The translations under genes were made by a program, and so were the position numbers. A DNA stretch of 63,768 nt from an uncultured Leptolyngbyaceae cyanobacterium (lineage in GTDB: Bacteria; Cyanobacteriota; Cyanobacteriia; Leptolyngbyales; Leptolyngbyaceae). The notes beneath the pieces were generated by a model that was given only the letters and a program-made list of their open reading frames with translations, did not search any database and was not told where the DNA came from. Below, one piece after another: positions 27,024-33,400 of this stretch. The stretch lies in assembly GCA_938023035.1 (NCBI GenBank), contig CALIDI010000015.1, forward strand, positions 1 to 63,768, in the 5' to 3' direction. Every line of letters begins with the position of its first letter. Positions within the stretch are counted from its first letter, which is position 1.

Positions 27024-27254
27024 AACCTCGAATCCAAGAGGCCAAAACCAACCGAAACTGGAGCGGTACGGCATTAGACCATCGGTTAGGTTAAGCGCTT
27101 GCGACCTCAGCCCTTTTAAGAGAATGGGTTGGTCTGACCACAGTTCCACAGGCCCTCATCGTCCATTCAGGAAAGTAGAGAATGTTCTTTGTATATGTGA
27201 CGATGCTCACATCGGCAGGTGATTGGGATCGCTGGTCGTGACCTGCGTTAACCC

Positions 27255-27337
27255 CATACTAGAAGAGACTCAACTTTAGCCGAGTCATCAACAGGGAACA
27301 CACGACCAGCCGACAGGAGACTGTCGGTTTTTTGTTT
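27255..27337 (+). ncRNA. Small-RNA-like unit, copy 1 (71 bp identical to copy 2)
   Basis: The block 27267-27337 is identical to 27953-28023. It begins with hairpin GACTC-aactttagcc-GAGTC, continues with an unpaired CA-rich stretch (ATCAACAGGGAACACACGAC), and ends with a terminator hairpin CCGACAG-gaga-CTGTCGG plus TTTTTTG. A CATACT at 27255-27260 is placed like a -10 box seven bases before the unit, and is also present before copy 2. The layout (5' hairpin, single-strand core, terminator) resembles cyanobacterial Yfr small RNAs, but the Yfr1 core ACTCCTCACAC is absent. Confidence 0.72.
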
Positions 27338-27642
27338 TTGATCTGTTTTATCTCAATTAATCTTCAAATAGCCTTTAGGCTCAGGTGGCTGTGGATAGAC
27401 TCAGAGTGTTGCAAGCCCAATAGCACTTCATTAGGAGCACTTAATTTTCTACCATAGTAGATTTAGCGAAGTTGTCCATCCGATCAGGAAAACATTGAAA
27501 CCCTTCTGCTGTTTGACCTACAGTTCACCCATCTACAAGGTACAAAGCACCCCTGCCCTTCGCCTAGCCATCCATTGTGAACAGCTTGAGTGATGGATAA
27601 CCCAGATTCATTTAAACTCGCTCGCCCAAGCGTTATAAGTTT
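27338..27642. other. Spacer between small-RNA copy 1 and MITE A2
   Basis: About 300 bases with no gene, hairpin or repeat that I can identify. Confidence 0.4.
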
Positions 27643-27817
27643 GGTTGTCTGGGTGCATGTCACTTTTGCCCTCACCCTTTTCTGGTATGCCCAGACTACT
27701 CCAACCTCTCTCCCAATTCGAGACAGAGACTTTGAGATAGCTTGACCCCCTTCTCCCAGGTTGGGAGAAGGGGGTAGGGGATGATAGCCTAAAAAGGTGA
27801 CAAGCTCTCGGTTGTCT
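27643..27817. mobile_element. MITE-like element, full copy A2, with target duplication
   Basis: The element is 27651-27809 (159 bp). It starts GGGTGCATGTCACTTTTGCC and ends AAAAGGTGACAAGCTCTC, so the ends form an imperfect terminal inverted repeat of about 17 bp. Eight-base direct repeats GGTTGTCT flank it at 27643-27650 and 27810-27817. The inside is non-coding and contains TTCTCCCAGGTTGGGAGAAG, a hairpin. It has inserted between the two small-RNA copies. Confidence 0.85.
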
Positions 27818-27940
27818 GAAGGAACGTTAGACGATTTCACCGAACCTGGCAATTCATCGCCCTTTCTCTGCCGAAACTGGGGTGACCAAGATCACAGGGG
27901 CTAGGTGACCGCGATCGCCCATCCCTTTAGCTTTTTCCCG

Positions 27941-28023
27941 CATACTGAAGAGGACTCAACTTTAGCCGAGTCATCAACAGGGAACACACGACCAGCCGAC
28001 AGGAGACTGTCGGTTTTTTGTTT
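27941..28023 (+). ncRNA. Small-RNA-like unit, copy 2
   Basis: Bases 27953-28023 repeat copy 1 exactly, including both hairpins and the T-run. CATACT at 27941-27946 again precedes the unit by six bases, while sequence further upstream and downstream differs. Conservation of only the unit and the -10-like box between two otherwise unrelated flanks argues for an RNA gene rather than a simple segment duplication. Confidence 0.72.
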
Positions 28024-28055
28024 CTCTCTAATTTTCCTGTATAAAAACAATAGCC

Positions 28056-28112
28056 CGAATCAGGGTTTGAGTCTCGAAGATACTCAAACCCTGATTCGAC
28101 TGCGTTCAGTCG
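28056..28112. terminator. 17-bp perfect inverted repeat plus adjacent hairpin
   Basis: CGAATCAGGGTTTGAGT at 28056-28072 and its exact reverse complement at 28082-28098 enclose a 9-base loop. A second hairpin CGACTG-cgtt-CAGTCG follows at 28097-28112. Read on the minus strand, after the end of the gene at 28156, the large hairpin is followed by GGGCTATTGTTTTTATAC, so it could end that transcript. Its perfection is unusual for a terminator. Confidence 0.6.
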
Positions 28113-28155: not shown

Positions 28156-28758
28156 CTAGCGCATGGCAGACATCGTTGTTTTCCAGGACAGTTCTTTGCA
28201 GAGAATCTCAAGCGCCCGTTGATCGGTGCCATTAAACAACTGCAAGGCAATGAGCTCCTCTAGGACCTGCTGAGTCAGTTGAGCGGCAAACAAACCACCA
28301 GAGCGTAATAGATGACTAAAGTAACAAAATTGAGGTCGATTGACCGAGTTCAGATGAAAGTGGTAAATTTCCGTTTTTGTCATCGTACAAACCGGAGTGT
28401 TGACAGGCACAACAATCCTCGGAATGCCATGAACGCCATAAATATTATCTTTGCTTCCAGTCAGGGTGCCAATCAGGGCGATGCCTAAGAGGGTGCGCGT
28501 TTCAACAATCAAATCTGGGGTAAATAGGGGATCGGGTTCGCTGGAAAGACGCGGCCCCATATTCAAGAACATGGGGTTAAAGAGTTGGGAGTTATAAACG
28601 ACTCCAACGGTTACTGGGCAATCCTTCGCCGCTAACTTAACAAAACTGCCAAATCCATAATCATCTGGTTTTGGGGAGTTTTCTCGACTTTTCTCATCAT
28701 CGACTTCAGCCACGTAATCGCAGTGAGAGTTTGACTTCACGATTTTGCCTAAGCGCAT
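28156..28758 (-). CDS. Conserved cyanobacterial protein, HAS-barrel-like N-terminus
   Basis: 200 residues, soluble. I recognise a cyanobacterial family with the start MRLGKIVKSNSHCDYVAEV, the central NPMFLNMGPRLSSEPDPLFTPD and the end ALEILCKELSWKTTMSAMR. The first 60 residues and GSFVKL/VGVVYNSQL look like a HAS-barrel (the small beta-barrel found in HerA and F1 ATPases); this is an inference. A perfect AGGAGG precedes the start. The degenerate RNase III gene lies 24 bases upstream on the same strand, so they are probably one operon. Confidence 0.7.
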   Translation of the reverse strand: MRLGKIVKSNSHCDYVAEVDDEKSRENSPKPDDYGFGSFVKLAAKDCPVTVGVVYNSQLFNPMFLNMGPRLSSEPDPLFTPDLIVETRTLLGIALIGTLTGSKDNIYGVHGIPRIVVPVNTPVCTMTKTEIYHFHLNSVNRPQFCYFSHLLRSGGLFAAQLTQQVLEELIALQLFNGTDQRALEILCKELSWKTTMSAMR

Positions 28759-32710: not shown

Positions 32711-33400
32711 CTATTGGACTTTACTAGCTAAGTGGGCCAACTGCTTTAAGTTCATTAAATAGATGGTGTTGTTAGTCGAGTCAATTTTAATCCAGCCTTT
32801 GCTATCCAGCCTTTCCATGATCTTTGTCGTCTCTTCGACTCCAATATCGCTGACATCAGCCAAATCCTTATAAGGGATATTGTAAATTTCAGTACCCATT
32901 GCCGTTTCTTCCCCATAGGTTTCGCCCAGGGTCACCAGGGTATTTGCGAGCTTTACCGCTGGAGGCTGGTGCCTCAGTTGAAAGCGCAGGTTAGTCAAGC
33001 GCAGGCGACGCACCATCAGTTGCAACATTCGATGATGCAGTTGCGGATCTTTAAATAGCGTTTGAATAAAGCGTTGAGCTGAAATACTCACCAGCTTTAC
33101 CGGCGATAGGGCAATGACATCGGTTGAACGAGGAGACTCATCTAAAATTGCCATTTCACCAAAAAAGTCTCCCTTTCCCAGAATTGCTAAGGTCACAACC
33201 TCTTCCCCCGAAGAGAGCCGACGCACTTTGACCCACCCTGAGACAATGAAGTACACTGCATTGCCCCAGGCATCTTCCATTAATACAGCTCGATTCGCAG
33301 GATACTCATGTTCCACCGCAACCGAGAGTAACCAGTCAAGGGTTTCAGCATTGGCGGCACTTAACAGAGGAAATAGCTCACTAAAGGCTTCTGTTTGCAT
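32711..33400 (-). CDS. CRP/FNR family transcriptional regulator
   Basis: 229 residues: an N-terminal cyclic-nucleotide-binding beta-roll (about 10-125), a long dimer helix (about 128-150) and a C-terminal winged helix-turn-helix (about 170-222; YKDLADVSDIGVEETTKIMERL). The phosphate-binding cassette reads FGEMAILDESPRSTDV, which keeps the E and the R-S pair of cAMP-binding CRPs. No FNR-type cysteines are present. It is the first gene of a two-gene unit with the M61 peptidase, whose expression it may share. Confidence 0.88.
   Translation of the reverse strand: MQTEAFSELFPLLSAANAETLDWLLSVAVEHEYPANRAVLMEDAWGNAVYFIVSGWVKVRRLSSGEEVVTLAILGKGDFFGEMAILDESPRSTDVIALSPVKLVSISAQRFIQTLFKDPQLHHRMLQLMVRRLRLTNLRFQLRHQPPAVKLANTLVTLGETYGEETAMGTEIYNIPYKDLADVSDIGVEETTKIMERLDSKGWIKIDSTNNTIYLMNLKQLAHLASKVQ

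Follow-up and report, generated by a model that had tools for sequence, protein, structure and literature searches.

Duplicated small-RNA genes of a Leptolyngbyaceae cyanobacterium belong to a conserved family apparently under cAMP-CRP control

The stretch of DNA analysed here (hereafter the window) comprises 63,768 nucleotides of an uncultured Leptolyngbyaceae cyanobacterium and harbors two copies of a short unit that appears to represent a new family of a known kind of gene, a stand-alone small RNA (sRNA) seemingly controlled by CRP. We consider it probable that the unit encodes a free-standing, trans-acting, base-pairing sRNA that is activated by cAMP-CRP. What carries this reading at the sequence level is the unit itself, its terminator, its conservation, the positions of the sites upstream of it, and its co-occurrence with a CRP gene. 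An earlier sequence-only reading had proposed duplicated small regulatory RNA genes, a proposal that our analysis supports; the upstream CRP-type sites, which lie outside the region that it described, and the conservation in other genomes go beyond it.

The two units are identical over 71 bp, as that reading had stated (27267-27337 and 27953-28023, with a start-to-start distance of 686 bp), and a repeat scan covers them with an 86-nt repeat of 93% identity. Their flanks differ, again in agreement with it: the copies share 55.5% identity over 98 nt upstream and 56.8% over 80 nt downstream, the upstream value comparing with an average of 0.55 between different genomes. The identity starts at the predicted +1, seven bases past the end of the CATACT box, which is indeed present ahead of each unit (Table 1). 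The terminator hairpin with T-run was recovered at both copies (two found by a terminator scan, against a mean of 1.1 in shuffles), with a stem of 9 pairs, then T, at each. The proposed 5' hairpin, GACTC/GAGTC, is present in the units but weak by itself: of the fold energy of the whole 67 nt (-21.2 kcal/mol, z -3.81), the terminator supplies most, and the pre-terminator part folded alone gives z -1.45. The described core GGGAACACACG occurs at both units and at no third place in the assembly, but its final G is not conserved family-wide. The shorter core AGGGAACACAC is kept throughout the family, with exceptions in 1 of 40 units in one set and 2 of 37 in another.

Table 1. Features of the two sRNA gene copies in the window; centres assume a predicted +1 located 7 nt past the -10 hexamer, and the RNA models R1 and R2 were built partly from the window's own copies
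Feature	Position	Strand	Evidence
CRP-type site TGTGACGATGCTCACA, copy 1, centre -63.5	27196..27211	.	sequence
Proximal degenerate CRP/FNR-type element TGATTGGGATCG, copy 1, centre -41.5	27220..27231	.	
-10 hexamer CATACT, copy 1	27255..27260	+	
sRNA gene copy 1, predicted transcript of about 67 nt	27267..27333	+	71-bp identity, RNA models R1/R2, terminator
CRP-type site GGTGACCAAGATCACA, copy 2, centre -64.5	27881..27896	.	sequence
Proximal degenerate element TGACCGCGATCG, copy 2, centre -41.5	27906..27917	.	
-10 hexamer CATACT, copy 2	27941..27946	+	
sRNA gene copy 2, predicted transcript of about 67 nt	27953..28019	+	71-bp identity, RNA models R1/R2, terminator
5' hairpin GACTC-loop-GAGTC	27267..27286 (copy 1), 27953-27972 (copy 2)	+	fold, alignment
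Core AGGGAACACAC, conserved, mostly unpaired	27293..27303 (copy 1), 27979-27989 (copy 2)	+	
Rho-independent terminator with T-run	27308..27333 (copy 1), 27994-28019 (copy 2)	+	

The search of related genomes that the sequence-only reading had suggested found homologues of the unit in 43 of 58 (90-bp query, E ≤ 1.3e-6; 48 of 58 at E ≤ 1; own genome counted). Homologues in other genomes reach E-values down to 2.9e-23, and the unit is therefore more than a chance arrangement. Over the whole phylum, R2, an RNA model of 37 diverse units, detected it in 48 of 386 sampled genomes. The R1 model had earlier recovered these 48 and six weak ones (E 0.0006-0.01; G338, G211, G112, G294, G157 and G330), which were dropped because R2 gave no match in them. 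A looser R2 scan of 30 genomes, 29 of which were prior negatives, returned the one prior positive; six of the prior negatives gave weak matches (E 0.06-0.41). Moreover, when GTDB contigs were scanned with a pattern, 59 named stretches emerged, for example from Leptolyngbya, Phormidesmis, Oculatella, Stenomitos, Elainella and Myxacorys.

In the alignment of the 37 diverse units, the 26-nt stretch AGCCGAGTCATyAAyAGGGAACACAC is near invariant. Pairing is kept in 96.1% of the cells of the terminator helix and in 87.0% of those of the 5' helix. The latter shows no two-sided change, and the 5' hairpin thus seems to be under selection for its sequence rather than for pairing. Another possible inner hairpin, ACTY/GAGT, is compatible with 95.9% of cells, and two-sided changes are absent from it as well. 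The window's 67-nt unit contains no ATG, GTG or TTG; among 77 homologous units, ATG occurs in 5 (being absent from 72), GTG in 4 and TTG in 22.

The unit looks like a stand-alone gene, since its neighbours vary between loci. Of 83 loci, 55 have a convergent nearest downstream ORF of at least 110 aa and 22 have one on the unit's own strand; in 6, no such ORF was found. This mostly convergent orientation argues that the unit is mostly not a leader. A promoter and a terminator of its own, as required of a trans-acting sRNA, are predicted at both copies. In the window, the convergent neighbour (28156-28758, minus strand) encodes a conserved protein of about 200 aa that has no match in Pfam or NCBIfam, and its homologues hold the same convergent position in many Leptolyngbya-type loci. 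Other neighbours are allophycocyanin-type, PurL and superoxide dismutase genes (best NCBIfam matches, all under cut-off). One PurL-like gene beside a unit (L049:2-1315, minus strand) matches the N-terminal splicing region of inteins.

The sequence-only reading had left the choice between a Yfr2-like RNA and a new family. The latter is favored by the Rfam 15 scan of the window at gathering score, in which a tRNA was the sole match and no sRNA family was recovered. When the region 27200-28060 (861 bases) was scanned with E up to 10, 13 matches appeared, none of them over a unit. The sole sRNA family among these was abiF, an edge-cut fragment at 23.3 of 37 bits, whose match overlaps the distal CRP-type site and not the sRNA unit. 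The proposed covariance check gave no match of Yfr1 or Cyano-1 over the units, and membership in Yfr1, Cyano-1 and Cyano-2 was rejected on these scans and on motif reading. Yfr1 is described as an unpaired core between two stem-loops (PMC6778093), the core being CACUCCUCACACC (PMC4734099). The unit resembles Yfr1 in having a conserved unpaired core, but CACUCCUCACACC is missing from it, as the sequence-only reading had noted.

The three-part layout of the unit recalls Yfr2, as does the fact that Yfr2 genes (Rfam RF01701, Cyano-1) are cyanobacterial, short, present in several copies per genome and arrayed in some. We take Cyano-1 to be of Yfr2 type, judging from its motif GTGTGAGGAG, which is complementary to part of the Yfr1 core. 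However, this motif is not in the unit, Cyano-1 is absent from the 13 weak matches, and Cyano-1 genes lie elsewhere in the own genome (one at 47.8 bits). All 30 genomes examined for Cyano-1, 29 of which carry the sRNA, proved to have it (24 over cut-off), at sites that differ by eye from those of the sRNA. With one locus considered per genome, GTGTGAGGAG is full in 25 of 30 and shortened to GTGAGGAG in 5. The unit might alternatively act as a sponge pairing with Yfr2, since its CACACGAC is complementary to GTCGTGTG at the Cyano-1 gene of its own genome. This was rejected: in one Cyano-1 locus from each of the 30 genomes, the bases ahead of GTGTG do not track those of the sRNA by eye, which leaves about 5 bp. 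A Yfr2-like RNA or a Yfr2 sponge is thus very improbable. Arrays of Cyano-1 were observed at G343:C41:260615-261203 (four genes) and G425:C1:1187558-1187941 (three genes), with a spacing of 153-171 bp.

Two further cyanobacterial sRNAs differ from it in their published descriptions. NsrR1 has homologues in heterocystous strains and two closely related unicellular ones, and an NtcA site over its -10 box (PMC6166021), whereas the present family, found for example in Leptolyngbya, Phormidesmis and Oculatella, has CRP-type sites upstream. NsiR1 also forms a tandem array of sRNA genes, but is described as HetR-dependent. A literature search covering titles and the starts of abstracts found no description of the family. 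The family is apparently undescribed, and transcript tables of carrier strains may list a homologue as an unnamed sRNA.

A promoter scan found no sigma-70 pair of -35 and -10 hexamers at either copy. A hexamer obeying NATANT, the very rule by which the -10 box was sought, is present in 114 of 120 distinct units with upstream DNA, and the six units lacking it were left out. At an offset of 51 or 52 from this hexamer, GTGAN6TCAC occurs in 97 of the 114 promoters (83 at -63.5 and 14 at -64.5), in DNA that lay outside the R1 and R2 search models and among units of which near relatives are not independent. At -41.5, which we take to be the position of a class II activator, TGATcnnGATC (TGATN4ATC) prevails, with 1.27-1.67 bits for each letter of TGAT and GATC (114 units). 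The outer G/C of the CRP consensus is missing from this element in most units, the full GTGAN6TCAC being found there in 15 of 114. When second copies are added, 102 of 122 units have the distal site and 15 the full proximal site; 7 of these 15 have no distal site, and 13 of the 122 have neither full site. Diverged second copies in G023 (L375), G014 (L378), G015 (L376) and G030 (L383) are among the units devoid of a full site. Finally, four loci from genomes of 2.5-3.3 Mb (L149, L157, L158 and L159) have a single full site at -42.5 and no distal site.

The cyanobacterial CRP consensus is given as TGTGAN6TCACA, and most CRP-activated genes identified in two strains are reported to have a TAN3T -10 box about 22 bp past the site (PMC2633013). 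This published spacing is that of the proximal element here (about 21-22 bp to the -10 box); for the distal site the spacing is about 43 bp. The SyCRP1 targets slr1667 and slr0442 of Synechocystis (PMC2633013) have the same TGTGAN6TCACA-type site, but are protein genes. Read as sequence, the promoters of the sRNA combine such a site, a distance typical of class I or class II activation given the predicted +1, and a CRP gene in the genome, and the units are apparently under cAMP-CRP control.

The own genome harbors, on contig C7 (locus L125), a gene for a CRP-type protein with a PRST motif and a RETVTR(VL) recognition helix, RETVTRVL being also the sequence of this helix in E. coli CRP. Among NCBIfam models, CRP matches the protein best, at a score under the model cut-off (76.9 of 266 bits). 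A close orthologue (E ≤ 1e-70) is present in 109 of the 386 genomes, in 47 of the 48 carriers of the unit versus 62 of the 338 non-carriers (Fisher p 9e-29, shared ancestry being ignored). There are consequently 62 CRP-bearing genomes with no detected unit, and the carrier G153 has no close CRP orthologue, yet retains the distal site and the proximal element.

A second cNMP-binding regulator of the CRP family, a paralogue of the genome's CRP, is encoded in the window itself (32711-33400, minus strand), about 4.7 kb from the sRNA pair. It has the PRST motif and the recognition helix VEETTKI, in which a valine takes the place of the CRP arginine that contacts the outer G. Neither a CRP nor a paralogue gene was found in the other unit-bearing loci searched, which measure 1.5 to 8 kb, so that a gene at 4.7 kb often falls outside them. 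CRP might repress the unit, or another protein of the CRP/FNR family, such as this paralogue, might control it. The proximal TGATN4ATC resembles FNR-type sites and the VEETTK helix looks nearer to that of FNR than to that of CRP, which would suit the second case. However, the CRP consensus is matched by the distal sites and, in full, by the site near -42 of the single-site loci; as regards repression, the sites do not overlap the -10 box. We give either possibility little credence. A two-factor promoter, in which CRP would bind at -63.5 and another regulator of the CRP/FNR family (for example the paralogue) at -41.5, with the sRNA as an old, main output of cAMP signalling, is a speculative and rather unlikely variant. 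If it were true, the small genomes would have merged both elements into one full CRP site, and the second copies lacking a full site would have left cAMP control.

For the preferred reading, activation by CRP of a trans-acting sRNA, we infer the following course, from CRP binding and activation (rather than repression) through transcription and its start to base pairing with targets. When cAMP rises, cAMP-bound CRP would occupy the distal consensus site (about -63.5); a second CRP dimer, or CRP jointly with a related regulator, would probably sit on the degenerate element (-41.5). CRP would then recruit RNA polymerase, the promoter having a -10 box but no recognisable -35 box. Transcription, beginning roughly where the 5' hairpin does and ending at the terminator, would yield an RNA of about 60-80 nt that would regulate mRNAs in trans by pairing through the near-invariant, single-stranded AUyAAyAGGGAACACAC. 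CyaR and Spot 42 are CRP-dependent sRNAs of enterobacteria that use Hfq. The likeness to these two, by description only, is that of a free-standing sRNA apparently wired to cAMP-CRP, but they belong to another phylum and depend on Hfq.

Searches for targets started from the complement of the core. Over 44 genomes, the 11-nt complement occurs at 41 places outside sRNA genes, versus 31 for a reversed control, and in the own genome it matches nowhere but at the two sRNA genes. Examination by eye of 40 of the 41 places (G017:C34 being left out) revealed no recurrent gene with a site at its start; three of the 40 lie inside coding sequences that are presumably psaD-like. A 16-nt complement with up to two mismatches gave 92 other places, versus 77 for the control. 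Of these, 80 were examined; the 16 that lie close to the start of a gene stand before genes of which no two are homologous. In addition, the crp 5' regions of 20 genomes form no consistent duplex with the sRNA (z -2.27 to +1.31, mononucleotide shuffles).

The lack of a recurrent near-perfect complement suggests that pairing would be shorter or imperfect, or else that the RNA binds a protein. A CRP-controlled RNA acting by titration in the manner of CsrB/RsmY, and not by pairing with mRNAs, would account for the conservation of loop and core as sequence and for the failure to find a recurrent antisense target, and the extra copies would suit titration. However, titrating RNAs usually repeat their motif, and the present RNA has a single core motif. 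Moreover, a search reported in PMC2662882 failed to identify homologues of RsmA/RsmE in cyanobacteria. We therefore regard action through protein binding as unlikely and retain base pairing as the probable mode of action.

The cyanobacterial genes linked to cAMP-CRP in PMC2633013 and PMC7690835 code for proteins and relate to pili, motility or nitrogen. If its apparent control by CRP is confirmed, the conserved sRNA would provide a post-transcriptional arm for cAMP in many lineages. The presence of second copies with and without a full site within one genome offers a built-in comparison.

Ten of 60 contigs (the 59 named stretches and the window) hold two to five units. In these ten, the terminator part is 0.842-1.0 identical between copies versus 0.663 between genomes, and the upstream DNA 0.555-0.739 versus 0.55. 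This suggests that the transcribed part has been homogenised between copies, because the terminator parts are alike while the upstream DNA has diverged. The flanks of the L085 copies are also similar (0.74 and 0.71), so that a recent duplication may be enough as an explanation there. In G222, the three copies of the array share 0.60-0.74 identity and show no homogenisation. Dispersed copies in six genomes have identities of 0.71-0.91, versus 0.80 between those genomes, the value of 0.71 being due partly to unequal cut ends. Concerted evolution, clear in the ten contigs and absent from the G222 array and the dispersed pairs, was therefore dropped as a trait of the whole family. The extra copies probably raise dosage.

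Copies located at separate places in some genomes (G014, G015, G023, G026, G030, G040 and G222) and the inverted repeats nearby could recall a mobile or REP-like repeat devoid of function. We find this hardly credible for units that number at most five clear ones per genome, have a fixed promoter layout and keep their core across families.

Some minor features accompany the copies. In the distant second copies L375, L378, L376 and L383, the hairpin loop is changed, the core is unchanged and a full CRP-type site is absent; they perhaps represent a sub-family under other control. Between the two copies of the window, a G/C-rich inverted repeat (27741-27781, CCCCCTTCTCCCA..TGGGAGAAGGGGG) looks REP-like and gives weak matches to Rfam miRNA families. 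Directly past copy 2 lies an inverted repeat of 20 nt (28056-28098, 95% complementary, with a 3-nt loop), which is perhaps the terminator of the convergent gene 28156-28758.
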